Below, piece by piece: positions 45,365 through 62,343 of a DNA stretch of 64,000 bases. Positions within the stretch are counted from its first letter, which is position 1. The number at the start of each line of letters is the position of its first letter. This DNA is from an uncultured Bacteroidales bacterium (GTDB lineage Bacteria; Bacteroidota; Bacteroidia; Bacteroidales; Muribaculaceae). The notes beneath the pieces are model-generated. The model saw only the letters and a list, made by a program, of their open reading frames with translations, did no database searches and was not told the origin of the DNA. Both the position numbers and the translations under genes were made by a program. Location: NCBI GenBank assembly GCA_902777835.1, contig CACYVC010000017.1:1-64000 (forward strand), read 5' to 3'.

Positions 45365-46228
45365 ATGGCTGCAAGTCAATTTGCTAAAGTAATCGCCGAA
45401 AGTTCATCAACCCGCTCCGAGTGGAGCTTAGTTGATGGAAACAACGTAGTAGCTCATGCTATCATTTCGGGTATCAACCCATATTTCTTAACTCGCAGAG
45501 AGATAAGCCACATTATCAGGCTTGAATTGCCTCGCGATTTCTTCAAACGTCGCTGGGACAAGGTATATTTCTATGGCGCAGGATGTTCCAATCCCGAGCG
45601 CAATAAAATCGTGGAACTGTCGCTTGTGGCACAGTTCAAGACTCCTGTAGTCGTTGAAAGCGACCTTGTGGGAGCAGCTCATGGCCTACTGCAGAATGAG
45701 GCAGGACTGGCTTGCATTCTAGGCACTGGCTCCAATTCCTGTTTCTACGACGGCGAAAAGGTAACCAAGAGTGTCACCTCGGGCGGCTTTATATTGGGCG
45801 ATGAAGGTAGCGGTTCATCAATGGGACGCATCTTCTTGAGCGACGTGCTCAAAAACTTGGCTCCAAAGGAATTAATCGAAGAGTTCTACGCTGTGAACAA
45901 AATCACCAGCGCCAATTTGATGGATGCCGTGTATAACAACCCACACGCCAACAACAACCTCCATGACTACTCCTTCTTCCTTGCCGATCATCTCGACAAC
46001 GAGTATTGCCACAACCTCGTTACCAATGAGATAAAGCGTTTCTTTGAGCGCAACATCTGTCAGTATGACTATAAAGACTACCCAGTGTGCTTCGTGGGAT
46101 CAGTAGCGACACGCTATAGCGAGATTCTGCTACAAGTTGCCTACACCTACAACGTCAACGTCAAGAAAATCGTAAGCGAATCAATGCCAGGGTTAGTAGT
46201 ATATCACTCAGTAGGAATGAAAGCCTGA
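45365..46228 (+). CDS. BadF/BadG-type amino-sugar kinase-like protein with altered phosphate-1 motif
   Basis: The protein has 287 residues in the ASKHA fold. It is a paralogue of the kinase at 61501-62343 and shares YFYGAGC, VVESDLVGAAHGL, ACILGTGSNSCFYDGEKV, ILGDEGSGSSMGR and CFVGSVA. The phosphate-1 loop, DSGSTK in the paralogue, is here ESSSTR (E12 to R17), so both the invariant Asp and Gly are changed. Either substrate or metal handling differs, or catalysis is reduced. Its place at the head of the salvage cluster suggests a sensor or a second kinase. It is followed by a strong terminator, so it is a separate transcription unit from the amidase operon. Confidence 0.82.
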   Translation: MAASQFAKVIAESSSTRSEWSLVDGNNVVAHAIISGINPYFLTRREISHIIRLELPRDFFKRRWDKVYFYGAGCSNPERNKIVELSLVAQFKTPVVVESDLVGAAHGLLQNEAGLACILGTGSNSCFYDGEKVTKSVTSGGFILGDEGSGSSMGRIFLSDVLKNLAPKELIEEFYAVNKITSANLMDAVYNNPHANNNLHDYSFFLADHLDNEYCHNLVTNEIKRFFERNICQYDYKDYPVCFVGSVATRYSEILLQVAYTYNVNVKKIVSESMPGLVVYHSVGMKA

Positions 46229-46522: not shown

Positions 46523-49500
46523 ATGGCAATAAATAAGAAAATACTAGTTTTCGCTGTTTCGGCCCTTATCTTGTCATCGCTGACGATAAAAGGGCAAACC
46601 TTAACACAAGACGAGATTAATAGGGTGCAACAAATCATCTCCTCCACCTTACCAGAGCACATGGGTATCGGAGAGTTAAAAGTTAGATCTATCGACGTTG
46701 TTGACGACTCCATCAAGATTGACCTGAGCGAGAACTTCGGCGACGTGCCTTTCACCGAGGAGAGCATCAAGAGTTTGAAAGCCGACATCTCAGCTGTTCT
46801 TGGTGAGCAATACCGCGACCACAAGGTGGCAATCAGCATCAGTGGTAACGACATAGAGAACTATTTCTCGGAATTCGACAATTCATATAAGCGCAAACAC
46901 AACGCTTTTGTCACCCCGCTCGACGAGAGCCGCCATTACAAGAAGGGCCTGAGCGGAAATATCGTAGCTGTGTGGCCCAGCCATGGCTGGTATTTCGAGC
47001 CTTACCTTAACCGTTGGGAGTGGCAACGCGCACGAATCTTCCAGACAGTGGAGGACATGTACACTCACAGCTACATGATTCCATTTATCATGCCTATGCT
47101 CGAGAATGCAGGAGCCTACGTGTGGGATGCCCGCGAGCGCGACACCCACAACTTTGGCGCTGTTGTCGATAACGACGGTGGCAACGCGCAAAAAGGCTAC
47201 CACGAGACCAACGGCAGTAAGAAGTGGAAAAATGGCGAAGGCAATGGATTTGCCTACAAACGCAACGAATATAAAGACTTCGAGAACCCCTTTGAAGAAG
47301 GTTCTTATCGCATGATCGAAGCCGAGAAAGACAAGAAAAAAGAAGCCATCGCATCATGGGATGTGGATATGCCAGAGGCAGGGACTTTTGCCATCTACGT
47401 GAGCTATAAGTCCTTACCCAACAGCGCGCATGACGCAACCTACACTATAAACTCCCTCAATGGCAGCCAGCAGTTCAAAGTTGACCAGAGTATGGCAGGC
47501 GGAGTGTGGGTTTATCTTGGCTCTTTTGAACTTGCAAAAGGCATTAACAAAAGCGTTGTTACTCTTAGCAACCACAGCAGCGACAAGAAGGCCGTCATCA
47601 CTGCCGACGCCATCAAGGTTGGCGGTGGCAAGGGCAACATAGTGCGCCGCGTGGCTCTTCCCACTCCCGAAAACAAAGCAATCGCCGAGAAAAACGATGA
47701 CATGAAATATCTGGGCAAAGAAGGTATCGACTACCAATATGTAGGCAGCGGTGACCATCCCTGGTTCCACCTTGGATCACGTTACTTCCTGCAATGGTCG
47801 GGCTTCCCCCATAAAGTGTATTCAACTAGCGACGGCATCAACGACTATGTTGACGACTACCGCAGCCGCGGCGAGTGGGTAAACTGGCTGGCAGGCGGCA
47901 GCGACGTGCTGCCTAGCAAGCCAGGTCTCAAGGTACCTGTGGATGTTTCGTTCTGCCTCCACACCGACGCTGGCACAACCCAAAACGATGACATCATTGG
48001 CACTCTGCTTATCTACTGCACAACAAAGAACGGAAAGCAGTTTGGGAAATATGAGAATGGCACGCCACGCGAGCTCTCTAGACAGTTTGCCAACATTGTC
48101 TCAACCGAGGTGGTAAATGACATACGAGCAAAATACGAACCCAACTGGACCCGCCGAGGCATGTGGGACAAGAGCTACTACGAGGCACGTGTGCCCGAAG
48201 TGCCTGCACTGCTAATGGAACTGCTTTCGCACCAGAACTTCGCCGACATGAAATATGGCCTCGACCCGCAGTTCCGTTTCGACGTTAGCCGTGCCATCTA
48301 CAAGGGCATTGCCAAGTTTATCGCCAAGCGCGACCACCGCGAGTGTGTCATCCAACCACTGCCAGTAAACTCATTTGCCATAAACAAGGTGAGCGAATCG
48401 CTTTACATGCTCAACTGGGAGCCAACTCCTGACCCATTGTGTGCAAGCGCTGTTGCCAAGAAGTATATCGTTCTGGAACAAGTGGGTGATGGTGGCTTTA
48501 AAGAGATAGAAATCGTTGATGACCCACACTATTCGGTGCACATCAGCGACAACGAGATTCACAGCTACAAGATTGTTGCCATGAACGAGGGCGGACGCAG
48601 CTTCCCAAGCGAAACCCTGTCGCTGGGAGTTGCCAAGAACAGCAAAGGCACAGTGATGGTGGTCAACAACTTCACACGCATCAGCGGTCCTGACTGGTTC
48701 GACAGCGGCAAGATGGCTGGATTCTACGACAACAAAGACCACGGAGTGCCCTACATGGAGCAAATCAACTTCCTAGGTTCACAATTTGAGTTCCGTCGCC
48801 ACCTGCCCTGGCGCGACGACGATGCACCAGGTTTTGGCGCATGCCGAAGCAACCACGAGACCGAGAACATCGCCGGCAACACCTTCAATTACCCATCGCT
48901 GCACGGCAAAGCCATCATGCAAGCTGGATATTCCTTTGTGTCAACCAGCGTTAAGGCGATAGAAAACGATGACGTTAATCCCGACGACTATTGTGCTCTC
49001 GACATCATTATGGGCAAGCAGAAAGAGACACCAACCGGACGAGGTGCAAAACCCTCGCGCTACAAAGCTTTAACAAGTGGACTGATGAACACCCTCACTG
49101 CCTACACGCGCAACGGCGGAAATGTGCTCATGACAGGTGCCTATGTTGCCAGCGACATCTGGGACAAAGACGCACCAGCCCAAAACGAGATGAACTTCGC
49201 CAAGAACGTGATGGGCTACACTTGGGTGGATGGACGAGCAACACTTATGGGAGAAGTTTATAGCGTGCCATCTGCCCTAAAGATGAGCGACGGCATGGGC
49301 AAACTCTCGTTCTTCAACACCCTCAACAGCGACTTCTATGCTGTGGAGTCACCCGACGCCATCAAAGCTAGCGACGAGCGCGGCGCAACCATCTTGCGTT
49401 ACAGCGAGAACAATATTCCCGCAGGCATCGCATCTAACCGTTATGGCTACAAGACCGTGGTTGTGGGATTCCCCTTCGAGACCATCAAGAGCGAATCCGA

Positions 49501-49552
49501 GCGCAATACATTTATGGGCCGAGTGCTCAACTTCTTCTCTAAAGACTATTAA
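46523..49552 (+). CDS. Secreted N-acetylmuramoyl-L-alanine amidase-like protein with golvesin-type insert ('xanthan lyase' annotation group)
   Basis: The protein has 1009 residues and a signal peptide ending near IKGQ. An amidase_3-like zinc fold is split: WPSHGWYFE (H154) and VEDMYTH (E177) precede a golvesin-like beta domain (about 250-375, MIEAEKDKKKEAIASW to ADAIKVGGG), and SFCLHTDAG (H480) and LLMELLSHQNF (E566) follow it. The H, E, H, E set matches the amidase_3 zinc and catalytic residues, but the usual GHGG is SHGW. A fibronectin-like part and a long C-terminal region (from MVVNNFTRISGPDWFD) complete it. Such proteins are often named xanthan lyase; in this cluster a role in cutting stem peptides from peptidoglycan is much more likely. 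No T9SS-like tail. Confidence 0.82.
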   Translation: MAINKKILVFAVSALILSSLTIKGQTLTQDEINRVQQIISSTLPEHMGIGELKVRSIDVVDDSIKIDLSENFGDVPFTEESIKSLKADISAVLGEQYRDHKVAISISGNDIENYFSEFDNSYKRKHNAFVTPLDESRHYKKGLSGNIVAVWPSHGWYFEPYLNRWEWQRARIFQTVEDMYTHSYMIPFIMPMLENAGAYVWDARERDTHNFGAVVDNDGGNAQKGYHETNGSKKWKNGEGNGFAYKRNEYKDFENPFEEGSYRMIEAEKDKKKEAIASWDVDMPEAGTFAIYVSYKSLPNSAHDATYTINSLNGSQQFKVDQSMAGGVWVYLGSFELAKGINKSVVTLSNHSSDKKAVITADAIKVGGGKGNIVRRVALPTPENKAIAEKNDDMKYLGKEGIDYQYVGSGDHPWFHLGSRYFLQWSGFPHKVYSTSDGINDYVDDYRSRGEWVNWLAGGSDVLPSKPGLKVPVDVSFCLHTDAGTTQNDDIIGTLLIYCTTKNGKQFGKYENGTPRELSRQFANIVSTEVVNDIRAKYEPNWTRRGMWDKSYYEARVPEVPALLMELLSHQNFADMKYGLDPQFRFDVSRAIYKGIAKFIAKRDHRECVIQPLPVNSFAINKVSESLYMLNWEPTPDPLCASAVAKKYIVLEQVGDGGFKEIEIVDDPHYSVHISDNEIHSYKIVAMNEGGRSFPSETLSLGVAKNSKGTVMVVNNFTRISGPDWFDSGKMAGFYDNKDHGVPYMEQINFLGSQFEFRRHLPWRDDDAPGFGACRSNHETENIAGNTFNYPSLHGKAIMQAGYSFVSTSVKAIENDDVNPDDYCALDIIMGKQKETPTGRGAKPSRYKALTSGLMNTLTAYTRNGGNVLMTGAYVASDIWDKDAPAQNEMNFAKNVMGYTWVDGRATLMGEVYSVPSALKMSDGMGKLSFFNTLNSDFYAVESPDAIKASDERGATILRYSENNIPAGIASNRYGYKTVVVGFPFETIKSESERNTFMGRVLNFFSKDY

Positions 49553-49599: not shown

Positions 49600-51033
49600 A
49601 TGAAATCGCCATTTCAAATACCAGTTGTCACATGCGACAGAGTTACGACCATTACAAGTTGTGATGGAGACTTGCCGCTTGGAACGAGCATACGGAGCAT
49701 CAACCTAACTGGTTTTGGAATTGGGAACTCATGGATTCATTCTTTTAAAGGATTTAACGGTGAGAAATATGGACTTTATGTTCTAAATTCTAGGCACATC
49801 GAACTTGGGCACATGGCATTGCGCCGCATGATTAAGGTTGCTGAAGACACAAATGCGGCTATGGTCTATTGCGACCATTATAACCGCAAAAGCGACGGCT
49901 CGATTGTCAAGCATACAGTTATTGACTACCAGGAAGGTTCATTGCGTGATGATTTCGACTTTGGCCCTGTGGTATTGATTAATAGTGACGCTCTTTTGAG
50001 GTCTTGCCGTGAAATTGACAACGACTTAAAGAGACTTGAGTTCTCTGGGTTCTATGCTATGCGTCTGGCATTGTCGCGCGTTGGCAAGATTGTGCACATT
50101 CCTGAATATCTCTACACATGCGACAAAATCGACCAGCGTAGCAGTGGCGAACGAATCTTCGACTACCAGCGAGAAAGCGAGGCCGAAAAACAGAAAGAAA
50201 TGGAGGCAGTATGCACATGGCATCTCAAAAAGATTGGGGCCTATCTGCCGCCTAAACGTTATGAAGATGTTGACTTGAGCGAGAGTGAGTTCCCTGTACA
50301 GTGCTCAGTTATTATCCCTGTGCTCAACCGCAAAAACACGATTAGCAATGCAATCGAGAGTGTGCTTGCTCAAGATGCTCCGTTCAGTTTCAACCTTATC
50401 ATCATCGACAACCATTCTACCGACGGCACTACTGAGGTTATCGATAAGTTTGCCGATGACCCACGCCTCATCCACATCATTCCTGAACGACACGACTTGG
50501 GAATTGGCGGATGTTGGAACCTGGGGATATACGACAAACGTTGTGGCCGATTTGCCATAGGACTTGACAGCGATGATCTTTTTGCCACACCTCACGTTTT
50601 GGAAACTATGATTCAAAAATTCTATGAGGAAAAAGCGGCGATGGTCGTGGGCAGCTACATGACTGTTGACTACAACTTGCAGGAAGTGCCACCGGGCATC
50701 ATTGCACACCGTGAGTGGACATTGGAGAACGGTCGCAACAACCTGTTGCGTGTTAACGGCATTGGTGGCCCTCGTGCATTTTTCACTCCTATCTATCGCC
50801 GCATTTGCTTGCCTTGCAGCAGCTATGGCGAAGACTACGGCATGGGGCTGATGCTATCGCGCCATTACCGCGTGGGGCGAGTGTGGGACGTTATGACTCT
50901 TAACCGTCGTGGCGATGACAACACCGACTCCAACCTCACCATTGAGCAGGAAAACGCCAATAACCTCTACAAAGACCGCCTGCGCACTTGGGAAGTGCAA
51001 GCGCGACAAGCGTTATTGAAGACTGAAAATTAA
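49600..51033 (+). CDS. Twin-domain GT2-like glycosyltransferase, paralogue 1
   Basis: The protein has 477 residues, no signal peptide and no membrane helix. The N-terminal half resembles a truncated GT-A domain (AMVYCDHYNRKSDG, IDYQEGSLRDDFDFGPV). The C-terminal half is a standard GT2 domain: CSVIIPVLNRKNTISNAIESVL, IIDNHSTDGTTEVI, GIGGCWNLGI, and the metal motif GLDSDDLF. It ends GEDYGMGLMLSRHYRVGRV, then DDNTDSN and NLYKDRLRTWE. Soluble GT2s in a salvage operon are unexpected; acceptor unknown. A closely similar protein is encoded 22 nt downstream. Confidence 0.85.
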   Translation: MKSPFQIPVVTCDRVTTITSCDGDLPLGTSIRSINLTGFGIGNSWIHSFKGFNGEKYGLYVLNSRHIELGHMALRRMIKVAEDTNAAMVYCDHYNRKSDGSIVKHTVIDYQEGSLRDDFDFGPVVLINSDALLRSCREIDNDLKRLEFSGFYAMRLALSRVGKIVHIPEYLYTCDKIDQRSSGERIFDYQRESEAEKQKEMEAVCTWHLKKIGAYLPPKRYEDVDLSESEFPVQCSVIIPVLNRKNTISNAIESVLAQDAPFSFNLIIIDNHSTDGTTEVIDKFADDPRLIHIIPERHDLGIGGCWNLGIYDKRCGRFAIGLDSDDLFATPHVLETMIQKFYEEKAAMVVGSYMTVDYNLQEVPPGIIAHREWTLENGRNNLLRVNGIGGPRAFFTPIYRRICLPCSSYGEDYGMGLMLSRHYRVGRVWDVMTLNRRGDDNTDSNLTIEQENANNLYKDRLRTWEVQARQALLKTEN

Positions 51034-51055
51034 TAATCACAATACATATTACATC

Positions 51056-52558
51056 ATGACAAAAATTAATTGTTTTATTCCTTTTGCCAACGCCGAGCAG
51101 GCACAGGCCACAGTTGATGGGTTGAAGGCCAATCCATTAGTAAACAAAATCTATTTGCTTGCCAATGATGAAGCCCAAGGCTCTATCGACGGATGCGAGA
51201 TGCTCAAGGTGAACAACCTCACCTCCACCGCTACCATCAAGGCTATTGCCGAGCATAGCGACACCTGCGTGACTTTGCTTTATACTAAGTATGTAACCCT
51301 GAAGTTCGCGCCTTTCGCCATCGAGCGTTTTGTGAAGGTCCTTGCCGACACCGACAGCGGCATGGTATATGCCGATCACTACAACGTAACCGATAAGGGC
51401 GCTGTTAAGGCTCCAGTTATCGACTATCAGATTGGCTCTCTGCGCGACGATTTCGACTTTGGCTCAGTGCTAGTGTTCTGCGCCGACTGCTTCAAGAATG
51501 CTGCCGCTGCCATGAAGGCCACTTATGAGTTTGCCGGCCTCTATGACCTACGACTCAAACTCTCACAGCGCTGTCTCATCACTCACATTAATGAGTATCT
51601 CTACAGCGACGTTGAGCTTGACACCCGCAAGAGTGGTGAAAAGATTTTCGACTATGTTGACCCACGCAACCGCGGACGCCAAATCGAAATGGAAGCCGCT
51701 TGCACCGAGCACTTGAAGGAGATTGACGGTTATCTACCTCCCGTAAAGGTAATTGACGGCAAGGAAGTTCCCAACTTCAAGCACATAGAGTTCGACCACG
51801 ACAAGTTTGAGGTTGAGGCAACAGTGATGATACCCGTGCGCAACCGCATTCGCACCATACGCGACGCCATCGACAGCGTGCTTTGCCAAAAGACCAACTT
51901 CAAGTTCAATCTCATGGTTGTCGATAATTTCTCTACCGACGGCACACGCGAGGCAATCGCCGAATATGACGACCCACGCCTTATCCACATCATCGCCGAC
52001 TATTACGACATGGGAATTGGCGGATATTGGAACCTCGCCGCTCATCACTCTAAGGCAGGCAAGTTTATTGTCCAGCTCGACAGTGACGACATGTACAAAG
52101 ACGAGAACACTCTGCAGACTATGGTTAACGCTTTCTACGAGCAAAATGTGGCAATGGTTGTGGGCACCTATCTGATGACCGATATCCACTGCAACCCAAT
52201 CCCTCCAGGCGTAATCGACCATAAGGAGTGGACTCCCGAGAACGGCCGCAACAACGCCCTACGCATCAATGGCCTGGGCGCACCTCGCGCTTTCTACACT
52301 CCAGTGCTGCGTGAGGTGATGCTTCCTAACGTGAGCTACGGCGAGGACTACGCCCTGGGCCTCAACATATCGCGCACCTACCAGATTGGACGCGTATATG
52401 AGCCAGTTTACCTGTGCCGCCGCTGGGACGACAACAGCGATGCCAACGCCGATGTGGTGAAAATGAACAACAACAACCTCTATAAGGACCGCATGCGCAC
52501 CTGGGAACTCATGGCACGCATCGCAATGAACAAAAAACAATGCTGTAAATGCTGCTAA
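51056..52558 (+). CDS. Twin-domain GT2-like glycosyltransferase, paralogue 2
   Basis: The protein has 500 residues with the same plan as paralogue 1: an N-terminal degenerate half (MVYADHYNVTDKG, IDYQIGSLRDDFDFGSV) and a complete C-terminal GT2 half (TVMIPVRNRIRTIRDAIDSVL, VVDNFSTDGTREAI, MGIGGYWNLAAHHSKAG, LDSDDMYKDE, YGEDYALGLNISRTYQIGRV). N-terminal 40 residues differ from paralogue 1. It ends in a cysteine cluster (KKQCCKCC). No export signal. It overlaps the DUF4922 start by 10 nt. Confidence 0.85.
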   Translation: MTKINCFIPFANAEQAQATVDGLKANPLVNKIYLLANDEAQGSIDGCEMLKVNNLTSTATIKAIAEHSDTCVTLLYTKYVTLKFAPFAIERFVKVLADTDSGMVYADHYNVTDKGAVKAPVIDYQIGSLRDDFDFGSVLVFCADCFKNAAAAMKATYEFAGLYDLRLKLSQRCLITHINEYLYSDVELDTRKSGEKIFDYVDPRNRGRQIEMEAACTEHLKEIDGYLPPVKVIDGKEVPNFKHIEFDHDKFEVEATVMIPVRNRIRTIRDAIDSVLCQKTNFKFNLMVVDNFSTDGTREAIAEYDDPRLIHIIADYYDMGIGGYWNLAAHHSKAGKFIVQLDSDDMYKDENTLQTMVNAFYEQNVAMVVGTYLMTDIHCNPIPPGVIDHKEWTPENGRNNALRINGLGAPRAFYTPVLREVMLPNVSYGEDYALGLNISRTYQIGRVYEPVYLCRRWDDNSDANADVVKMNNNNLYKDRMRTWELMARIAMNKKQCCKCC

Positions 52559-53514
52559 ATGAGCAAATAGACGAACTTTGGGAGCGGCAGTTGCGTGAAT
52601 GGCAACTGGTGCGAGACAACTATGCAGCACTTGATGGATTGCATACTCGCGAAGTTAGCATCCCCACCAAGGAAAGTTTGCAAGACTCACGCATTGTGCT
52701 GCAATACAACCCAAAGAGATTGAGGTCATCGGCGGCAAACATCGACGATGACTCAATCAAAGCTCGTCCTTGCTTTTTATGCAGTGAAAACCAGCCTCAT
52801 GAGCAAGAAACGGTAGTTTGGGATGGCCGTTACAAAATTCAAGTCAACCCCTACCCCATCTTCTCACGGCATCTCACCATCTCGGCTTTAGAGCACACCC
52901 CGCAACGCATCAACGGCCGCATTGCCGACATGATGCAACTAGCAAAAGAGCTGCCTAGGTATGTGGTGTTCTACAACGGTCCACAGAGTGGCGCTTCAGC
53001 ACCCGACCATGCACACTTTCAAGCAGGGCTTTGCAACGAACTGCCCATTTGCAACGAACTATTTAATGCATCCACAAGCCTGTTTGATGCTAATAGTCAG
53101 GGCATATTTGGTGTTATCACTGAATTGGGCAGACCTGTGTTCTATATCGAAACTTCAAGCTTGGAGTTTGGTGAGCAGTGGTTCAATACTTTGCTCAACG
53201 CATTGCCTATCAAGGCTGGGCACGCCGAGCCACTAATTAACGTGCTCTGCTGGTGTGATGGTGGCTCATGGTGCATCGCCGTGTTCCCTAGACGCAAACA
53301 TCGCCCCGCCTGCTACGGCACTGATGAAGACCACTTTGTCATCAGTCCAGCATCGGTCGACATGGGTGGTCTTTGGGCAATCGCACGCGAAGAAGATTTT
53401 ATCAACCTCACTCTTCACGATATCACAATCATATATCTTGACGTGTGCATGTCGCCACAAGACGTAGAGGCTATTTCTGAGAATTTAAGACAATATTATT
53501 ATTCTAAACGATAA
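52549..53514 (+). CDS. DUF4922 GalT/HIT-like putative nucleotidylyltransferase or phosphorylase
   Basis: The protein has 321 residues. Two histidines in APDHAHFQAG (H154, H156, with Q158) match the HxHxQ active site of the HIT superfamily branch that holds GalT (hexose-1-phosphate uridylyltransferase) and Ap4A phosphorylase. A CFLC pair (C75, C78) just after the first domain could bind zinc as in GalT. Other blocks are YKIQVNPYPIFSRHLTI and VFYNGPQSGASAPDHAHFQ, also GalT-like. Known chemistry of relatives is nucleotidyl transfer through a His intermediate. The actual substrate is unknown; in this operon a HexNAc-1-phosphate is a reasonable hypothesis. No export signal. Confidence 0.78.
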   Translation: MLLNEQIDELWERQLREWQLVRDNYAALDGLHTREVSIPTKESLQDSRIVLQYNPKRLRSSAANIDDDSIKARPCFLCSENQPHEQETVVWDGRYKIQVNPYPIFSRHLTISALEHTPQRINGRIADMMQLAKELPRYVVFYNGPQSGASAPDHAHFQAGLCNELPICNELFNASTSLFDANSQGIFGVITELGRPVFYIETSSLEFGEQWFNTLLNALPIKAGHAEPLINVLCWCDGGSWCIAVFPRRKHRPACYGTDEDHFVISPASVDMGGLWAIAREEDFINLTLHDITIIYLDVCMSPQDVEAISENLRQYYYSKR

Positions 53515-53520
53515 CACACT

Positions 53521-54846
53521 ATGGCACAAGTTCCACAAGTGAGAGTAGGCATTATGAGTGAGCCTATGCTAGAGTTTGAACTCAACGGCGACTACCGTGT
53601 AAGCGGTGAGAAAGTGACTGGAAATCAGCTTGCACAATGCGTCGATGGTATGGTAGCTTGGAATGGTAAGAAGTACCGTGATTTGTTCTTTGAACCTACC
53701 AACGTAGATAGCGATTCCTTCACTCTCGAAAACGTGACAATCGGAGTCAGCTTCCACTGGAGGAGAAAAGAAAATCAAACTTTCCGCGGAGCACTCCACC
53801 TAATAGTCGAAAATGACAAAATCACTGCAATCAACATTCTCTCGGTGGAAGAATACTTGATGAGCGTGATTTCGAGCGAGATGAGCGCTAATGCTTCACT
53901 TGAACTGCTTAAGGCTCACGCTGTGATTTCACGAAGTTGGCTGCTGGCACAAATTCACAAAGACAACGTTGCCACAGCTGCCGAGCCAGGGCTCCATCAG
54001 GAGTTTGCCGAGAGCAACGCCGACGAGGAAATTAAATGGTGGGACCGCGATGACCACGTCAACTTCGACGTGTGCGCCGACGACCACTGCCAGCGATACC
54101 AAGGCATCACACGCGCCACAACCGAGGCAGTGCGACAAGCCATTGAGGCTACTTGGGGGCAGGTTCTCATGTATGGCGGCGAACTCTGCGATGCTCGATT
54201 CTCGAAGTCATGTGGAGGCGTGTATGAGCAGTTTGAGAACTGCTGGCAAGACAACCACCACCCCTATTTGGTTGCTAGGCGCGATGATGACGACGAGATG
54301 AACTTCCCCGACCTCACTCGTGAGGATAACGCCGCCGACTGGATTCTCTCCTCTCCACACGCTCACTGCAACACCACCGACAAAGAGATTCTCTCACAGG
54401 TGCTCAACGACTACGACCAAGAGACAACCGACTTCTACCGTTGGCGCGTGGAATACACCCAAGAAGAACTGAGCCGTATCATTCGAGAGCGCACGGGCGA
54501 CGACTACGGACGAATTATCGACCTTGAGCCAGTGGCACGTGGCACAAGCGGGCGTCTCTATAAACTCCGCATCGTTGGCGAAAAAATGACAAAAACCATT
54601 GGAAAGGAATTGACAATTCGCTACGCACTTTCACCAACATGCCTCTACAGTTCGGCGTTCATCGTCGAGGTGATAAATGAGGGCGACAGCGAATTCCCAG
54701 AGAAATTCGTGCTCAGAGGTGCAGGTTGGGGACACGGCGTGGGATTATGCCAGATAGGCGCAGCAGTAATGGGCGCCAAAGGCTACAGCTATCAGCAAAT
54801 CCTACTACACTACTTCATCGACGCACAAATCAAGAGCATATACTAA
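53521..54846 (+). CDS. SpoIID/LytB-domain protein (lytic transglycosylase-like) without signal peptide
   Basis: The protein has 441 residues. The SpoIID domain has the catalytic Glu in SVISSEMSANAS (E120), then LLKAHAVISRSWLL, FSKSCGGVYEQFENCW and the C-terminal GAGWGHGVGLCQIGA. SpoIID cleaves glycan strands of denuded peptidoglycan. The N terminus (MAQVPQVRVGIMSEPMLEFEL) is not a signal peptide and no upstream in-frame ATG would supply one, so it appears cytoplasmic, which is odd for a wall enzyme. Two cysteine-containing zinc-like loops (CADDHCQRYQG) are also present. It sits 7 nt after DUF4922 and 28 nt before the importer. Confidence 0.85.
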   Translation: MAQVPQVRVGIMSEPMLEFELNGDYRVSGEKVTGNQLAQCVDGMVAWNGKKYRDLFFEPTNVDSDSFTLENVTIGVSFHWRRKENQTFRGALHLIVENDKITAINILSVEEYLMSVISSEMSANASLELLKAHAVISRSWLLAQIHKDNVATAAEPGLHQEFAESNADEEIKWWDRDDHVNFDVCADDHCQRYQGITRATTEAVRQAIEATWGQVLMYGGELCDARFSKSCGGVYEQFENCWQDNHHPYLVARRDDDDEMNFPDLTREDNAADWILSSPHAHCNTTDKEILSQVLNDYDQETTDFYRWRVEYTQEELSRIIRERTGDDYGRIIDLEPVARGTSGRLYKLRIVGEKMTKTIGKELTIRYALSPTCLYSSAFIVEVINEGDSEFPEKFVLRGAGWGHGVGLCQIGAAVMGAKGYSYQQILLHYFIDAQIKSIY

Positions 54847-54873: not shown

Positions 54874-56202
54874 ATGAGCGCATTAACAAAATTCAAGCAA
54901 AGCCCTTGGGCATGGGTATCTACCCTATATTTTATTGAAGGAATCCCATATTTTCTTGTAAATGAGATTTCAGTGATTCTTTTCAAGAAAATGGGAGTTC
55001 CAAATGGGCAAATGGCATTATTTACCAGCCTTATTTATCTTCCTTGGGTAATAAAGCCTTTGTGGAGTCCTTTTGTTGACATCATCAAGAAAAAACGTTG
55101 GTGGATTGTCATGATGCAGGCCCTAATGGCTGCTACTCTCATCCTGCTCACTGTAACATTGCCATCACCAGGTGAAGAAATGATTAAAGCCGGAACAACA
55201 CCAATGAGCATGTTCACGGTGACATTGATTTTCTTCGTTATAACTGCGTTTGCTTCAGCAACTCACGACATCGCTGCAGATGGATTCTACATGTTAGCAT
55301 TGACGCAGAAGAACCAATCAGCTTTTGTTGGCGTTCGTTCTACTTTCTATCGACTTGCCAATATTTTCGGTAATGGCGTGTTGGTGTGGATAGCTGGTTA
55401 TCTTGAGACAAAAACTTCTATTCCTGCAGCATGGAAGATTACTATGGGCATTGCATCAGCAATCTTGTGCTTATTCTACATCTACCATCTGTTCTTCATT
55501 CCTCGACCTGATAGCGACAAGTCATCGCTTGAAGGAGAGTTCAAAAACAACAGTTCACAAGTAATGGCAGAGTTTGGACGAACAGTAGTGACTTATTTTA
55601 AAAAGCCTGGTGTGTGGATTGCTATCATCTTTATGCTGCTTTATCGTTTGCCAGAAGCTTTCTTACTTAAGATGTGCAAGCCTTTCATGCTCGACCCAAC
55701 TGACAAAGGTGGTTTGGCAATGACCACACAAGATGTGGGACTCGCTTATGGCACCATTGGTGTTGCAGCACTATTGGCAGGTGGCATCCTGGGAGGTATT
55801 TTTTCATCAAAAGTCGGTCTAAAGAAAGCAATTTGGCTTATGGCAGCTTGCATGACATTGCCATGCTTAACATTTGTATATCTTTCGATGGCTCAGCCAA
55901 CTAACTTCTTTGTTATTAGCACTTGTATCGTTATTGAGCAATTCGGATACGGATTTGGATTCACCGCCTATATGCTCTACATGATGTTCTTCTCTGAAGG
56001 CGAGTTCAAGACATCTCATTACGCCATCTGCACGGCTTTCATGTCGTTAAGTATGATGATTCCAGGAATGTTCGCTGGCTACTTGCAGGAGTCTATGGGT
56101 TACTCGGCATTTTTCTGGATGGCTTTCGCTTGCAGTATAGCCACCATAGCAGTAACATTCCTAGCCGACCGCAAGATTGATCCAGACTATGGTCATAAGT
56201 AA
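54874..56202 (+). CDS. MFS transporter, AmpG-like
   Basis: The protein has 442 residues and 12 predicted helices. It begins SPWAWVSTLYFIEGIPYFLVNEISVILFKKMGVPNGQMALFTSLIYLPWVIKPLWSP, very like AmpG permeases, with ASATHDIAADGFYMLAL in the fourth helix region. AmpG imports GlcNAc-anhydroMurNAc peptides into the cytoplasm. Neighbours (NamZ, MurQ, kinase) agree with muropeptide or MurNAc import. Exact substrate is inferred. A longer loop lies between the two six-helix halves (about 205-235). Confidence 0.85.
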   Translation: MSALTKFKQSPWAWVSTLYFIEGIPYFLVNEISVILFKKMGVPNGQMALFTSLIYLPWVIKPLWSPFVDIIKKKRWWIVMMQALMAATLILLTVTLPSPGEEMIKAGTTPMSMFTVTLIFFVITAFASATHDIAADGFYMLALTQKNQSAFVGVRSTFYRLANIFGNGVLVWIAGYLETKTSIPAAWKITMGIASAILCLFYIYHLFFIPRPDSDKSSLEGEFKNNSSQVMAEFGRTVVTYFKKPGVWIAIIFMLLYRLPEAFLLKMCKPFMLDPTDKGGLAMTTQDVGLAYGTIGVAALLAGGILGGIFSSKVGLKKAIWLMAACMTLPCLTFVYLSMAQPTNFFVISTCIVIEQFGYGFGFTAYMLYMMFFSEGEFKTSHYAICTAFMSLSMMIPGMFAGYLQESMGYSAFFWMAFACSIATIAVTFLADRKIDPDYGHK

Positions 56203-56253: not shown

Positions 56254-57507
56254 ATGAAACGACACATTATATTGATTGCATTAGCGCTCGTGGCTGTGAT
56301 GGCTACCGCAGTGGTGAAACCTGGTGTTGAGGTACTGCGTGATGGTGGTTTTAAGGAGCTACAGGGCAAACGCGTAGGACTGGTGACCAACCCTAGCGGT
56401 ATCGATAACAACCTTAAATCAACTGTCGATATCCTCAACGAAGCGCCTGGCGTGAAACTCGTAGCACTCTTTGGTCCCGAACATGGTGTGCGCGGCAATG
56501 CACATGCCGGTGATGCGGTAGGCGATGCTATCGATCCAGCAACAGGAGTAAAGATGTATTCTCTCTATGGCAAAACCCACGAGCCCACTGCCGAGATGCT
56601 GAAAAACATTGACGTGCTTATCTACGACATTCAAGACATTGGCTGCCGCAGTTACACATTCTACGCCACAATGGGAGTGTGTATGCAAGCGTGTGCCAAA
56701 TACAATAAGGAATTTATGGTTCTTGACCGACCTAACCCATTAGGTGGCAACAAAGTTGAAGGCAATCTTGTGGAACCTGGCTATTTCTCCTTTGTGAGCA
56801 AATATGCAATTCCCTATCTCTACGGCTTGACACCTGGCGAACTCGCCCAGTACCTCAACGAGGAAGGCATCATCGCAAAAGAGTCGAAGACTGGTAAGAA
56901 ATGCAAGCTCACCGTCATACCCATGGAAGGATGGACACGCGACATGAAGTTCCGCGACACAGGCATGCCATGGGTGCTGCCATCACCACAAATTCCTGCT
57001 CCCGAGAATGCGTTTTTCTATCCCGTGAGCGGCATTCTGGGCGAACTCTATATCTTCAACACTGGGATTGGATACACATTACCCTTTGAGTGCTTTGCCG
57101 CCTCATGGATCGATGCCGAGGCTCTTGCCAAGAACATGAACGCCTTGAACCTGCCAGGCATGCACTTCAGACCCATAAACTATAAGCCGTTCTTCGCACT
57201 GAGCGTGGCAGTTGACAAGTCGTTGCAAGAGGTGCACGGTGTGCAGATTTATATCACAGACTTCGACAAAGCCAATCTTGTCCTCACACAGTTCTACTTC
57301 CTGCAAGTGATTCACGAGATGTATCCTAAACAGGAGCTCTTTGAGCAGAACCCCAAGCGCTATGCAATGTTCGACAAGGTGTGTGGCACCAAGGAAATTC
57401 GTGAGCGATTCTGCAAGCGCTACAAAGTGGAAGACATTATAGACTACTTCAACAAAGACACCGAGTCATTCAAAGCAAAATCTAGCAAATATTATCTTTA
57501 TCAATAA
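56254..57507 (+). CDS. namZ: Exo-beta-N-acetylmuramidase NamZ-like (DUF1343, GH171)
   Basis: The protein has 417 residues and a signal peptide (MKRHIILIALALVAVMATA). DUF1343 blocks in order: KRVGLVTNPSGID, LVALFGPEHGVRGNAHAGD, YSLYGKTHEPTAEML, DVLIYDIQDIGCRSYTFYATMGVC, VLDRPNPLGGNKVEGNLV. C-terminal YYLYQ. Characterised members (GH171) remove MurNAc from the non-reducing end of peptidoglycan fragments. The signal peptide places it in the periplasm or outside. In Tannerella forsythia such genes lie near murK and murQ, as here. The stop is followed by a CTAG nonad repeat. Confidence 0.9.
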   Translation: MKRHIILIALALVAVMATAVVKPGVEVLRDGGFKELQGKRVGLVTNPSGIDNNLKSTVDILNEAPGVKLVALFGPEHGVRGNAHAGDAVGDAIDPATGVKMYSLYGKTHEPTAEMLKNIDVLIYDIQDIGCRSYTFYATMGVCMQACAKYNKEFMVLDRPNPLGGNKVEGNLVEPGYFSFVSKYAIPYLYGLTPGELAQYLNEEGIIAKESKTGKKCKLTVIPMEGWTRDMKFRDTGMPWVLPSPQIPAPENAFFYPVSGILGELYIFNTGIGYTLPFECFAASWIDAEALAKNMNALNLPGMHFRPINYKPFFALSVAVDKSLQEVHGVQIYITDFDKANLVLTQFYFLQVIHEMYPKQELFEQNPKRYAMFDKVCGTKEIRERFCKRYKVEDIIDYFNKDTESFKAKSSKYYLYQ

Positions 57508-57536: not shown

Positions 57537-60329
57537 ATGGACAACCGCCACAACACATATCTAAAGCGCATCAGGGAGTTCATCCCTAAAGACCGCATCT
57601 ACACCGACGACCTGCATTGCCTGGCGTGGGGTACCGATGCGGGCTTCTACCGCAACATCCCGCAAGTGGTGGTGCGTTCCATGAATGAGCAAGAGGTGTC
57701 GCAACTTCTCGCCATCGCTAATGAGATGCGCCTGCCTGTGACTTTCCGTGCTGCTGGCACTAGCCTGAGCGGACAGACCAACACCGACTCTATCCTCATA
57801 GTCGCTGGCAAAAACTGGGAGAATTATGAAGTAGCACCCGACGCCAGCTACATCAAACTACAGCCTGGGCTCGTGGGCAGCGAGGTGGACAAGATTCTCG
57901 CTCGTCACAACCGTGCCTTCACTCCCGACCCAGCAAGCAAGAACTCGGCAATGGTGGGTGGCATCGTCATCAACAATGCCAGCGGCATGAGTTGTGGCAC
58001 ACACGCCAACAGTGACCGCATGATGCTCTCGATGCGCATAGTGCTTGCCGACGGAACTGTGTTAGACACAGGCGACAAGCGCAGCCGTGACAAGTTCAGC
58101 CTTTCTCATCCCGACTTCATCAAGCGCATTGAGGAAATTCGTGACCGCGTGATGGCCGATAAAGAGCTTGTTGAGCGCATTCGTCGCAAATATTCCATCA
58201 AAAACGTGACAGGCCTCAACATTTCGCCATTTATCCTCTATACTGACCCATTCGACATCATCACCCATCTCATCGTGGGCAGCGAGGGAACTCTTGCTTT
58301 TGCCAGCGAGTTCACAATGAAAACTGGCCACCTCTACCCCTGCCGAGCAAGCGCAATGCTTTATTTCCAAGACATGCGCGAGTCGTGCGAAGCAGTGGTT
58401 GCGATGAAGAAAGGTCCAGTGCATTGCGCCGAGATTCTCGACAAGAAATCGCTCGCAAGCGTTGACGATACTACAGGCGAAGGGCTCACTGCTGTTCTTA
58501 TCCAAACTTTTGCCGACAGTAAAGAAGAGCTTCAGAACAACATCAACGAGATAATGGCATTACTTGAGCCATTCCACCTTTATGTGCCTGCCGTCTTCAC
58601 TGATGACCCTAAAGTCTATGGCAAGTACTGGGCGATTCGGTCGGGCATTTTCCCGAGCGTGGGTGGCACACGTCCATTGGGCACCACCGTACTTATTGAG
58701 GACGTGGCATTCCACATCGAGGACCTGCCCAATGCCACAGTTGACTTAGCACAGATGCTCATTGACTATGGCTATGACGACAGCTGCATCTATGGTCACG
58801 CACTTGAGGGCAATTATCATTTCATAATCTCGCAGTCATTCGACACTCAAGAAGAAATCTCCCGCTACGAGAACCTTATGCGCGCAGTCGTGGAGCTGGT
58901 AATCGACAAATATGACGGCTCGCTCAAGGCAGAGCACGGCACAGGTCGCAACATGGCGCCATTTGTCAAAAAAGAATGGGGCGAGAAAGCCTATCAGGTG
59001 ATGCTCGACGTGAAGCAGCTCTTCGACCCGCGAGGCATTCTCAACCCTGGAGTTATCTTCAACGACGATCCTGAGTGCTTCATCAAGAACCTCAAACCCA
59101 TGCCACTGACTAATGATAACGTCAATAAGTGCATCGAGTGTGGGTTCTGTGAAGTTAACTGTGTGAGCTGTGGTCTCACCCTCTCATCGCGCCAGCGCAT
59201 CATTGTGCAGCGCGAAATCTCTCGACTAAAAGATACAGGCGAAGACCCTGAACGGTTGAAACGCCTTGAGAAACAATATAAATACTATGGCGAAGCCACC
59301 TGCGCCGCCGATGGGCTCTGCTCAACATCTTGCCCTATGGGCATCAATGTGGGAGAACTAACCCATGACTTGCGTGCCGAGCAGCATAGCAAAGGCACTA
59401 TGGCACATGGCATTGGCAGCTATGTGGCACGGCATTTCTCAATGACTAAAGGCAGCCTCAAGTCACTGCTCTATGTTGCCAATGCAGCACATTCGGTGCT
59501 GGGCGACGGTGGCATGAAGGCTTTTGGAAAAGCGATGCACGCCATTGGAGCGCCACTATGGACACCTGCCACACCAAAGCCTCACAAGATGAAGGCTTTG
59601 AACCAGTCAGTAAGCGACAAGAAAGTGGTTTACTTCCCCAGTTGCCTCAATCAGGCTCTAGGTAAGGACAAGCATAGCAACGACACCGACCTCGTGGATA
59701 AAGTGGTCGCCTTCCTCAATAAAGCTGGTTGGGAAGTCATCTACCCCGAAAACATGAACAACCTGTGCTGCGGCATGATTTGGAACAGCAAAGGTATGCC
59801 CGATATTGCACAACAGAAGACTGACGAGCTTGAAAAAGCACTGCTCAAGGCTAGCGAAAATGGCAAATATCCAGTGATATGTGACCAAAGTCCATGTCTG
59901 CACCACGCTCGCGAGCACATGAAGCAAGTGAAACCATTTGAACTCATGGAGTTCATTCACGACTATGTGGCGCAAGACTTGGAGTTCATGCCCACTGACG
60001 AGCCCATTGCACTGCACCTCACCTGCTCAACACGACTGATGAAGATTGACGATAAGATTCTTGACCTCGCAAAGCGATGTTCAAACAATGTTCTTGTTCC
60101 CGAAGGTGTTGGATGCTGCGGCTTTGCTGGCGACAAGGGATTCACTCATCCTGAGCTAAATGCCTACGCTCTGCGCAAGCTGCGTACACAAATCGAAGCT
60201 GTGGGCATAAAGCGCGGCTTCAGCAACAGCCGCACCTGCGAGATAGGTCTCACCACCCATAGCGGCGTGCCCTACCAGTCGCTTATTTACTTGATTGATG
60301 AATGTACAACCATAAAAAATGATAAATAA
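57537..60329 (+). CDS. FAD- and Fe-S-binding dehydrogenase, D-lactate dehydrogenase-like (GlcD-GlcF fusion)
   Basis: The protein has 930 residues. N-terminal FAD-binding type-4 domain: VTFRAAGTSLSGQTNTDSI and NSAMVGGIVINNASGMSCG, then a GlcD C-terminal domain with GHALEGNYHF and KAEHGTGRNMAPF. Two 4Fe-4S motifs follow: CIECGFCEVNC (C532 onward) and CAADGLCSTSCP. Two CCG domains, each with a CCG core (LCCGMIWNS and GCCGFAGDKG), complete the GlcF-like half. This is the architecture of respiratory D-lactate / 2-hydroxyacid dehydrogenases. MurQ, in the same operon, releases D-lactate, so oxidation of that lactate to pyruvate is the likely job. Stop overlaps the next start (TAATG). Confidence 0.88.
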   Translation: MDNRHNTYLKRIREFIPKDRIYTDDLHCLAWGTDAGFYRNIPQVVVRSMNEQEVSQLLAIANEMRLPVTFRAAGTSLSGQTNTDSILIVAGKNWENYEVAPDASYIKLQPGLVGSEVDKILARHNRAFTPDPASKNSAMVGGIVINNASGMSCGTHANSDRMMLSMRIVLADGTVLDTGDKRSRDKFSLSHPDFIKRIEEIRDRVMADKELVERIRRKYSIKNVTGLNISPFILYTDPFDIITHLIVGSEGTLAFASEFTMKTGHLYPCRASAMLYFQDMRESCEAVVAMKKGPVHCAEILDKKSLASVDDTTGEGLTAVLIQTFADSKEELQNNINEIMALLEPFHLYVPAVFTDDPKVYGKYWAIRSGIFPSVGGTRPLGTTVLIEDVAFHIEDLPNATVDLAQMLIDYGYDDSCIYGHALEGNYHFIISQSFDTQEEISRYENLMRAVVELVIDKYDGSLKAEHGTGRNMAPFVKKEWGEKAYQVMLDVKQLFDPRGILNPGVIFNDDPECFIKNLKPMPLTNDNVNKCIECGFCEVNCVSCGLTLSSRQRIIVQREISRLKDTGEDPERLKRLEKQYKYYGEATCAADGLCSTSCPMGINVGELTHDLRAEQHSKGTMAHGIGSYVARHFSMTKGSLKSLLYVANAAHSVLGDGGMKAFGKAMHAIGAPLWTPATPKPHKMKALNQSVSDKKVVYFPSCLNQALGKDKHSNDTDLVDKVVAFLNKAGWEVIYPENMNNLCCGMIWNSKGMPDIAQQKTDELEKALLKASENGKYPVICDQSPCLHHAREHMKQVKPFELMEFIHDYVAQDLEFMPTDEPIALHLTCSTRLMKIDDKILDLAKRCSNNVLVPEGVGCCGFAGDKGFTHPELNAYALRKLRTQIEAVGIKRGFSNSRTCEIGLTTHSGVPYQSLIYLIDECTTIKNDK

Positions 60330-61483
60330 TGGCTCAATCTAAAAGATTACTCTCGCTCGACATATTACGAGGCATCACAATAGCAGGCATGCTCTTGGTC
60401 AACAATCCAGGAACATGGAGTCACATTTATGCTCCACTAGAACATGCCGAGTGGATTGGCCTCACTCCTACCGACCTCGTGTTCCCATTCTTTATGTTTG
60501 TGATGGGTGTATCGATGTATTTCTCGCTGAGCAAATTCAAATTTGAGTTTAGCAGCAAAGTCTTTCTCAAGATATTAAAGAGAACCATCATCCTTTTCCT
60601 CATTGGCTGGATGGTGCAATGGTTCGGAATGTGGTTAAGAGGGCTTTATGATCCAGAGTCGCACTTCTTCACAAAGATGTTTGGAAACTTGCGAATTTTA
60701 GGAGTATTCCAACGTTTAGCGCTTGTATATTTCTTTGGGTCTATGATTGCTGTGCTTTTCAAGACCAAATTCATACCTTGGATAATAGGTGGACTATTAG
60801 TTGCCTATGCTTTCATTTTAGGATTTGGAAACGGTTATGAGTTCTCACTCGACAACATCCTCTCGCGAGTTGATTGCGCTGTGCTAGGCGAAGACCACAT
60901 GTATCACGAGAGTGCCTACGGCACTAGTCTCGCCCTCGACCCCGAAGGCATATTAAGCACTATAGCGTGCGTTGCCCATGTGCTAATAGGCTTCATGATG
61001 GGCAAGTGCATAAGCACCGTTAAAAACAACCGCGACCGCATCGTCGAGATTGCAGTGTGGGGCGCATTGATGCTTCTTGTGGGATGGCTGTTGCAATATG
61101 GCATTCCTTGCAGCAAGAAAGCGTGGACCTCGAGCTATGTGCTCATTACATGCGGTATGGCCTCGTGCATTCTGGCGATGCTCATCTATGCCATCGACAT
61201 AAAGGGGCACAACCGCTGGTGCCGATTCTTCCAGGCGTTTGGCATCAACCCACTGTTCTGCTATCTGGTTGGAACCATTCTCTCAATAGTGTTTGGCGCT
61301 GTACGCTTTGGCACCAACGCCACAGGCGATCCTATCACCATCCACACACTTCTCCATGACGGCTGCAAAGCAATCACCTGGTCGCCAGAGGCCGCCTCAT
61401 GTCTCTATGCCATCATCTTCGTGCTCATCACATGGTGCTTTGGCTACATCCTCTACAAGAAAAAAATATACATAAAAATATAA
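60329..61483 (+). CDS. DUF5009/NagX-like membrane protein (heparan-alpha-glucosaminide acetyltransferase fold)
   Basis: The protein has 384 residues and about ten transmembrane helices. The N-terminal SLDILRGITIAGMLLVNNPGTW and the following DLVFPFFMFVMGVSMYFSLSKF are signatures of the HGSNAT/DUF5009 (NagX) family. The human relative acetylates lysosomal glucosamine residues; bacterial NagX is linked to GlcNAc use, with transport suggested. In this operon it might move or modify amino sugars across the inner membrane. Start ATG overlaps the previous stop by one base. Confidence 0.85.
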   Translation: MAQSKRLLSLDILRGITIAGMLLVNNPGTWSHIYAPLEHAEWIGLTPTDLVFPFFMFVMGVSMYFSLSKFKFEFSSKVFLKILKRTIILFLIGWMVQWFGMWLRGLYDPESHFFTKMFGNLRILGVFQRLALVYFFGSMIAVLFKTKFIPWIIGGLLVAYAFILGFGNGYEFSLDNILSRVDCAVLGEDHMYHESAYGTSLALDPEGILSTIACVAHVLIGFMMGKCISTVKNNRDRIVEIAVWGALMLLVGWLLQYGIPCSKKAWTSSYVLITCGMASCILAMLIYAIDIKGHNRWCRFFQAFGINPLFCYLVGTILSIVFGAVRFGTNATGDPITIHTLLHDGCKAITWSPEAASCLYAIIFVLITWCFGYILYKKKIYIKI

Positions 61484-61500
61484 CAAAAAATTCTACTATT

Positions 61501-62343
61501 ATGATTTTAATTGCTGACAGCGGCTCCACCAAGATTGACTGGTGTCTGCTAAACGGAAAAAAGAAAGTTGCTCAAATCTTCACTACTGGCATGAACGCTC
61601 TGCTCATGACCGAAGAAGAGATGGCTGAGTGCATCATGAACGAACTCATGCCAAGTCTCAGAGGATATGAGGTTACTGAGATTTACTACTACGGAGCTGG
61701 TATCATAAGCGACGAGATTAAGAATCAGGTTATCAACGCCCTAAAGCGCAATATGCCTCATGTCAACAAGATTGAGGTTGAAACCGACCTGCTCGGTGCG
61801 GCACGTGCTCTGTGCCAGCATGAGCCAGGCATCGCCTGCATCCTCGGCACTGGCAGCAACAGCTGCTACTACGACGGAGAGAAGGTGGTTGACAACGTGT
61901 CGCCTCTGGGATACATCCTCGGCGACGAGGGTAGCGGTGCTGTGCTGGGCAAGCTCCTCGTGGGCGATGTGCTAAAGAAGCAACTTCCTGAGCATCTGTG
62001 CGAGAAGTTCCTCAAGGAGTATAACCTCGACCGCACTACTATTATCGACCGTGTGTATCGCAAACCAGCCGCCAACCGTTTCTTAGCGCAGTTCGCTCCA
62101 TTCCTTGAGCACAATATCAACGAGCCTTCTATCAAAGCACTTGTGATGCGCTCTTTCACCGACTTCTTCGTGCGCAACGTTGCAAATTACCCCAACTACA
62201 AAGAACTGCCTTGTAACTTCGTAGGCTCTATAGCTCTGTTGCAGAAAGATGTACTAGTAGAGGCGGCCAGCAAACTCGGCATCACCATTGGCAACATCAT
62301 CCAAGCCCCAATGGAAGGCCTCATCAAGTACCACTCTAATTAA
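61501..62343 (+). CDS. BadF/BadG-type N-acetylamino-sugar kinase (MurK-like)
   Basis: From the ATG at 61501 the protein has 280 residues; an in-frame extension to 61399 lies inside the previous gene and is rejected. ASKHA motifs are intact: phosphate-1 ADSGSTKIDW (D6, G8, T10), YYYGAGI, VETDLLGAARAL, phosphate-2 CILGTGSNSCYYDGE, ILGDEGSGAVLGK and adenosine-site NFVGSIA. MurK-type members phosphorylate MurNAc and GlcNAc at O6. Next to murQ the product is likely MurNAc-6-phosphate. It is the intact counterpart of the altered paralogue at 45365. Confidence 0.88.
   Translation: MILIADSGSTKIDWCLLNGKKKVAQIFTTGMNALLMTEEEMAECIMNELMPSLRGYEVTEIYYYGAGIISDEIKNQVINALKRNMPHVNKIEVETDLLGAARALCQHEPGIACILGTGSNSCYYDGEKVVDNVSPLGYILGDEGSGAVLGKLLVGDVLKKQLPEHLCEKFLKEYNLDRTTIIDRVYRKPAANRFLAQFAPFLEHNINEPSIKALVMRSFTDFFVRNVANYPNYKELPCNFVGSIALLQKDVLVEAASKLGITIGNIIQAPMEGLIKYHSN

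Follow-up and report, generated by a model that had tools for sequence, protein, structure and literature searches.

The window analysed here – 64,000 nucleotides, positions 1 to 64,000 of the forward strand of contig CACYVC010000017.1 (GenBank assembly GCA_902777835.1) – comes from an uncultured Bacteroidales bacterium of the Muribaculaceae, and contains an operon in which genes for a glycosyltransferase (GT), a DUF4922 protein and a predicted SpoIID-family lytic transglycosylase lie directly upstream of a gene for the muropeptide importer AmpG. These four genes are the constant core of the locus among relatives, and the first three form a real and conserved module of some gut and mouth bacteria that probably handles wall disaccharides imported by AmpG without the usual enzymes. 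The operon is already known, and its pathway counts among the variants of muropeptide recycling. The assembly comprises 2.89 Mb, spread over 52 contigs, at 90% completeness; the nearest named relative among the matches listed, Muribaculaceae bacterium RGIG7531, shares the operon and has a SpoIID that is 93% identical.

Four adjacent open reading frames (ORFs) on the plus strand precede ampG: GTa (49600..51033, 477 amino acids), GTb (51056..52558, 500 amino acids), the DUF4922 gene (52549..53514, 321 amino acids; PF16269, E 5e-58) and spoIID (53521..54846, 441 amino acids; PF08486 E 1e-24, TIGR02669 E 4e-50). The original prediction, an earlier reading of this DNA, had their coordinates, families and spacings of 22 and -10 nt correct, but the third spacing is 6 nt rather than 7. 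AmpG (54874..56202, plus strand; TIGR00901 E 4e-53, 180 bits, cut-off 350) is followed on the same strand by NamZ, a flavin adenine dinucleotide (FAD) oxidase, a MurT-like protein, a MurK-like kinase and MurQ, and 5′ of GTa are an exported amidase-like protein and a second BadF-type kinase. The proposed tie to muropeptide salvage is supported, with AmpG adjoining and NamZ, MurT, MurK and MurQ often nearby.

Conservation was examined in a sample of 198 genomes of the order, 43 of which (the window's included) have DUF4922 matches; the neighbourhoods of the other 42 were read (L032-L071, L088 and L089). A search of genome contigs with the SpoIID alignment gave at least 591 stretches, 561 of them relatives, and the best 80 were taken, a set biased towards the window. 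Core genes were counted within 4 kb on the same strand, and NamZ, MurK and MurQ within 9 kb, a span shortened by contig ends. A clear DUF4922 gene is present at 41 of the 42 order loci, together with a GT at 34, SpoIID at 26, AmpG at 30 and all of these at 22. The best 80 SpoIID loci include a GT in 68 cases, DUF4922 in 67, AmpG in 71 and all three in 60, and the less constant companions NamZ, MurK and MurQ in 35, 30 and 22. Clustering of the whole core, at 22/41 and 60/80 loci respectively, is more than expected by chance. The expectation that the genes are kept together therefore holds for GT, DUF4922, SpoIID and AmpG, but the second GT and NamZ/MurQ are less constant. In a phylum-wide sample of 395 genomes, a module-type SpoIID (at least 550 bits) was found in 55, 49 of them outside the order, and 20 of these loci were read, 19 from outside the order. 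Among the latter the full core is present in L298, L299 and L300; L301, which lies on a short contig, has the core minus the GT, L297 has it rearranged and L293 has only DUF4922.

Gene fusions link the three module proteins further. The order sample has DUF4922+SpoIID fusions at three loci, GT+DUF4922 fusions at three and a single fusion of all three (L062, ending at a contig edge), and the best 80 loci have ten, five (L140, L141, L144, L160 and L166) and twelve (two incomplete) respectively. The ten full-length trifusions of 1251-1313 amino acids, such as those of Segatella buccae ATCC 33574 (L174), Xylanibacter caecicola (L154) and Prevotella sp. KH2C16 (L178), are each directly 5′ of AmpG, so that trifusion plus AmpG is the minimal set in Prevotellaceae. 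One genome, G059, encodes a GT+DUF4922 fusion apart from its operon, which has no DUF4922 (L066 and L085).

The module appears to be cytoplasmic, because export signals are nearly absent from all three families and SpoIID is fused to DUF4922 and GT. N-terminal hydrophobicity was scored simply as a 12-residue mean, with 1.9 or more taken as positive rather than by a trained predictor; in relatives whose ORF extends further 5′, as many as 30 residues ahead of the aligned start were also considered. The four module proteins score 0.21-1.03, as compared to 2.80 for the exported amidase-like protein and 3.38 for NamZ. Among relatives, a hydrophobic N-terminus is present in 27/27 amidase-like proteins and 53/53 NamZ proteins, versus 2/90 GTs, 1/112 DUF4922 proteins and 5/130 module-type SpoIIDs (exported-type SpoIIDs, judged by eye, are not in the scored set). 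In each of the four ORFs the start used is the first that follows a stop, leaving no earlier in-frame start from which a signal peptide could be read. The cytoplasmic location and lack of visible signal peptides in the original prediction are both supported, and the fused chains argue that SpoIID shares a compartment with an enzyme of nucleotide-binding type.

The window SpoIID belongs to the SpoIID/LytB family (PF08486, 87 bits, cut-off 23; TIGR02669, 171 bits, cut-off 83.3) and is the only PF08486 match in its genome; at 114 bits it falls under the 234.75 cut-off of the sporulation equivalog spore_II_D (TIGR02870). Residues E120, H179, C185, H189 and C190 are invariant in a 20-row alignment (A2), and the catalytic glutamate motif (xxEM) and zinc motif (CxdxxHCQ) are kept in 141/141 sufficiently complete module-type homologues. 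The Clostridium difficile SpoIID is described as having a catalytic glutamate motif and a histidine-cysteine zinc motif, and the Bacillus and Clostridium enzymes as cutting peptide-free glycan (PMC6934232). The window protein shares the family and catalytic motif with these (4rwr, 5txu and 5i1t) and the zinc motif with the clostridial ones, but differs from them in having no signal peptide or membrane helix, and in that some of its relatives are fused to cytoplasmic-type domains.

Two SpoIID types are readily distinguished within the order, where PF08486 matches occur in 116/198 genomes. A module-type SpoIID occurs in each of the 42 genomes whose DUF4922 match is strong, located at DUF4922 loci in 27 (two or three of these some kb away), at L088, elsewhere in 13, and in the window; at DUF4922 loci these proteins match the window protein at E 6e-75 or better. 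Fifteen further SpoIID loci were read, six being second copies in DUF4922 genomes and nine from the 74 genomes having SpoIID and no DUF4922. Fourteen are of another type, mostly with hydrophobic N-termini by eye, and the lone exception is a module-type SpoIID in G096, a 93% complete genome with no DUF4922 match. Assignment of the window SpoIID to the exported family of the order was rejected, as the exported type scores 31-85 bits against the window protein and the module type 398-580 bits. At twelve loci (L090-L101) the exported SpoIID lies directly 3′ of a gene for a 371-405 amino acid protein.

DUF4922 contains CFLC at 75-78 and HAHFQ at 154-158, positions given correctly by the original prediction, and C75, C78, H154, H156 and Q158 do not vary across 31 rows. 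The CxxC pair is present in 113 of 114 DUF4922 proteins and HxHFQ in 108, the other six having HxHLQ (five) or HLHFH (one). Fold and HxHxQ active site place the protein in the Apa2/GalT (HIT) superfamily, which sustains the earlier GalT/HIT-like label; the cut-off of the NCBIfam GalT uridylyltransferase model is not reached. Apa2 is the sole outstanding fold match, and no other sequence relative was found in the PDB. Both Apa2 (4i5t) and ADP-glucose phosphorylase (2h39) share the fold and HxHxQ-type active site; the CxxC pair, which also occurs in GalT, is missing from Apa2 in the sequence alignment. From its fold neighbours DUF4922 is predicted to be a nucleoside diphosphate (NDP)-sugar phosphorylase. 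Five plasmid records with DUF4922 provided no lead.

GTa and GTb are 45% identical members of the GT2 family (PF00535, 85 and 71 bits, cut-off 23.3) with DxD-type and ED motifs. They had been described as twin-domain GT2 proteins; the family assignment stands but two domains are unproven, the Pfam matches being limited to the C-terminal half (residues 236-385 and 256-385). The nearest solved structure to GTb, chondroitin synthase 2z87 (E 8.6e-21), does carry two GT2-type domains. Mean column identity in the 30-row GTb alignment (A3) is 52%, and DSDD and GEDY are present in 105/106 GTs. GTa is a fast-evolving, lineage-specific duplicate of GTb: its identity to the L102 counterpart is 72%, versus 98% for GTb, and its nearest row is L102 (path 0.59) with the next at 1.71, although it retains DSDD and GEDY. 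Among the loci read only L102 has a close GTa counterpart and the other relatives retain a single GT, so the proposed four-gene unit was abandoned; one GT suffices.

The operon was also presented originally as an undescribed system, a claim that gives way to its published co-transcription in Tannerella forsythia, where Tanf_08345-Tanf_08385 form a single transcript from a promoter driven by the regulator GppX (PMC5388701). The same report names the genes 5′ of ampG as xanthane lyase, gtf, gtf and lytB; the order at the T. forsythia locus (L119) is amidase-like, GT, DUF4922, SpoIID, AmpG, NamZ, MurT and MurQ, and the second ‘gtf’ is therefore the DUF4922 gene. These eight genes are shared with the window in the same order, and T. 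forsythia MurK and K1058, a kinase upstream of the cluster, have window counterparts (PMC5388701, PMC10465942). The window alone has a second GT and the FAD oxidase, and the K1058-like gene of L119 is on the opposite strand, unlike in the window. T. forsythia AmpG is a functional muropeptide permease (PMC5388701, PMC7670621), and an ampG mutant grows poorly on wall fragments (PMC7670621). The major AmpG substrates are reported to be the peptide-free disaccharides of N-acetylglucosamine (GlcNAc) with N-acetylmuramic acid (MurNAc) or 1,6-anhydroMurNAc (anhMurNAc); wild type uses both digests, reaching an optical density of ~1.3 with GlcNAc-MurNAc and ~0.8 with GlcNAc-anhMurNAc, and grows poorly on free anhMurNAc (PMC7670621). 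That paper states that no AnmK orthologue is predicted and poses the processing of the imported fragments as an unsolved question (PMC7670621). A search of open-access full text with the locus tags of the three T. forsythia genes returned only PMC5388701, and no published function for the GT, DUF4922 and SpoIID module was found in the open-access literature.

AnmK has no match in the window's genome or in two genomes of the same family that are 99% complete. It is present in 135/198 order genomes, comprising 6/43 of those with DUF4922 and 129/155 of those without, such that 37 of the 43 DUF4922-bearing genomes have no AnmK match; outside the order the uncorrected figures are 19/49 genomes with the SpoIID subfamily and 251/340 others. 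Fisher tests, which ignore kinship, give p values of 4e-17 (order) and 3e-6 (outside). Among 17 isolate genomes picked from the best 80 loci, all with a module-type SpoIID and 14 with DUF4922 at the same locus, AnmK is absent from 13, including T. forsythia. No NagZ scores above the curated cut-off in these 17 or in the window's genome (0/18), where the best GH3 match reaches 171 bits against 207 and both GH3 matches have a hydrophobic N-terminus; across the 18 best GH3 matches the N-terminus scores 2.0 or more in 16, with L313 at 1.67 and L308 set aside as translated in the wrong frame. MurQ is above the cut-off in 12 of the 18, below it in G213 (257 bits), and without a real match in G202, G204, G206, G212 and G214 (31-41 bits), and was accordingly rejected as an obligate partner. 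The window system thus has in common with canonical NagZ-AnmK-MurQ recycling AmpG import, MurQ and disaccharide cargo, but its genome has no AnmK match and no NagZ above the cut-off, and we infer that GT-DUF4922-SpoIID stands in their place.

We propose that GTb, DUF4922 and SpoIID act in the cytoplasm on GlcNAc-MurNAc and GlcNAc-anhMurNAc delivered by AmpG, in hosts with no recognisable cytoplasmic NagZ and, for most module-bearing Bacteroidales sampled, no AnmK. SpoIID would bind GlcNAc-anhMurNAc and, in a reversal of its usual reaction, open its 1,6-anhydro ring by transfer to water or to a sugar, a step suggested because the AmpG cargo is of the kind that lytic transglycosylases produce. 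The GT, also in reverse, would convert GlcNAc-MurNAc and NDP to NDP-GlcNAc and MurNAc, and DUF4922, whose fold points that way, would use inorganic phosphate (Pi) to phosphorolyse NDP-GlcNAc to GlcNAc-1-phosphate, returning the NDP. GT reversal is put forward in combination with a phosphorylase because net phosphorolysis should be feasible when the two are coupled: GlcNAc-(anh)MurNAc + Pi (+ water) would yield GlcNAc-1-phosphate + MurNAc with no ATP. MurNAc could then enter MurK/MurQ or AmgK/MurU, and GlcNAc-1-phosphate GlmU. Sucrose synthase offers a precedent, being a glycosyltransferase that in reverse obtains an NDP-sugar from a disaccharide, although it is of another GT family and fold and has no phosphorylase partner. 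We infer the compartment, the substrates and the direction of all three reactions, and regard the chemistry as a whole as tentative; a trifunctional, nucleotide-mediated phosphorolysis of a disaccharide, in which a reversed GT, recycled NDP, an Apa2-like phosphorylase and a reversed cytoplasmic lytic transglycosylase replace NagZ and AnmK ATP-free, is rather doubtful.

Several observations weigh against this proposal. The full core is lacking within 4 kb at 19/41 DUF4922 loci of the order, and at 13/19 loci outside it a module-type SpoIID has no GT or DUF4922 nearby. Below Apa2, the fold matches of DUF4922 to ADP-glucose phosphorylase (9.6-9.8) and uridylyltransferase (9.5) are tied, leaving uridylyl transfer as a further reading; this tie and the 13 outside loci lower our confidence in the best explanation. 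GT2 enzymes normally synthesise. AnmK is present in 4/17 isolates and in three outside genomes with all or most of the core (G311, G455 and G414; none in G292 or G269), and the NagZ search covered the best GH3 matches and did not extend to GH20, GH84 or lower-ranking GH3 proteins. The weaker growth of T. forsythia on anhydro sugars fits an enzyme that requires the disaccharide, and also poor uptake or slow use. Finally, on an rpoB tree of 70 genomes AnmK and DUF4922 both follow large clades, and six independent pairs give one or two opposite and zero or one same, so that the AnmK pattern is not significant; the raw Fisher tests failing in this way, co-occurrence was dropped as proof of AnmK replacement and kept as a lead. 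The 70 of 198 genomes are a non-random choice, consisting of the 30 best rpoB scores and 40 selected genomes, including every DUF4922 genome with a listed rpoB place. Long branches lead to G092, G028 and G068; G171, whose DUF4922 match is weak and partial (28.6 bits) and whose locus L089 has no module gene, is positive in the genome counts and negative on the tree; and the AnmK matches of G038 and G430, fragmentary or weak, are scored present. One well supported sister pair, G072/G176, has a clean AnmK/DUF4922 swap.

The original prediction favoured a building direction, with SpoIID as the enzyme that cuts imported glycan, DUF4922 as the source of an NDP-sugar made from a sugar-1-phosphate, and the GT as the builder of a glycan, which we take to be linked to a lipid or a protein. 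We consider this unlikely: the standout fold match is the phosphorylase Apa2, the smallest set in Prevotellaceae pairs the trifusion with an importer, and AmpG, MurK and MurQ appear to fit breakdown better than glycan building, although neither direction is established and the unknown neighbours of 40 loci were clustered and read by eye, with no search aimed at glycan-export genes. It is similarly improbable that SpoIID is an ordinary lytic transglycosylase cutting MurNAc-GlcNAc bonds of longer imported chains, with GT and DUF4922 treating GlcNAc ends otherwise, such as by capping or sugar-1-phosphate exchange. The window protein has the motifs of active SpoIID, the operon includes an amidase-like gene and NamZ, and Bacillus and Clostridium SpoIIDs act on peptide-free glycan (PMC6934232), but the disaccharides reported as the major T. 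forsythia AmpG substrates (PMC7670621) have no MurNAc-GlcNAc bond.

Two further explanations are less probable still. The module could make or break a small sugar signal or storage glycan reporting wall turnover, since AmpG cargo acts as a signal in other Gram-negative bacteria and a single chain of three enzymes could unite synthesis and breakdown sites; MurK and MurQ as companions suggest catabolism instead, and we think this quite unlikely. That DUF4922 is a plain diadenosine tetraphosphate (Ap4A) phosphorylase, placed here for translational convenience, has in its favour that Apa2 is its closest fold and PDB relative, but the CxxC pair and the fused forms seen in several genera, which join it to GT and SpoIID, make this highly improbable.

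If confirmed, the enzymology of the disaccharide phosphorolysis proposed above would be new. It would represent a new way of conserving glycosidic-bond energy, give DUF4922 a function and a lytic transglycosylase a cytoplasmic role, and bear on the uptake and release of host-sensed wall fragments by abundant gut bacteria. The published literature already asks how T. forsythia, lacking AnmK, makes use of the GlcNAc-anhMurNAc it imports (PMC7670621), and the single three-domain protein of Prevotellaceae makes the module testable in one tube.

The remaining genes of the window operon are all on the plus strand. The second BadF-type kinase (45365..46228; NF046058 26 bits, sub-cut-off; no Pfam match) is the K1058 counterpart by position, and the amidase-like protein (46523..49552; Golvesin_C, with Amidase_3 just under the cut-off), which may free glycan of peptides, occupies the place of the T. 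forsythia ‘xanthane lyase’ Tanf_08345. NamZ (56254..57507; PF07075 E 4e-85, PF20732) is an exported exo-muramidase. The MurT-like membrane protein (60329..61483), a DUF5009 relative (PF16401, 23.5 bits, cut-off 25), is a putative MurNAc transporter from its position matching that of T. forsythia murT. It is followed by the MurK-like BadF kinase (61495..62343, a later start chosen in an ORF from 61399; PF01869 and NF046058, both sub-cut-off) and the MurQ etherase (62424..63245; TIGR00274, 313 bits, cut-off 302). The FAD-linked oxidase/Fe-S protein (57537..60329), labelled from reading the sequence, is outside the core; its gene is in the operon in the window and several relatives and is absent from L119 and others.

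Several minor features were noted at other loci. The AmpG proteins of L033, L034, L047, L085 and L102 are 624-677 amino acids long and align almost end to end with the 442 amino acid window AmpG, which suggests an insert of ~180 residues or more. In L032 and L041 the amidase-like gene is separated from the GT by a gene of ~617-625 codons, whose product looks by eye like an exported metallophosphatase; by length and place this gene is also in L113-L116, L118 and L124. Outside the order, L284-L296 (families f135 and f153) have a signal-less SpoIID mostly without an adjoining GT2 or DUF4922. In the locus translated there, the SpoIID gene adjoins one for a GT4-like glycosyltransferase; this and the other neighbours, which by eye look like a BatA-like protein and HflX, gave no lead.

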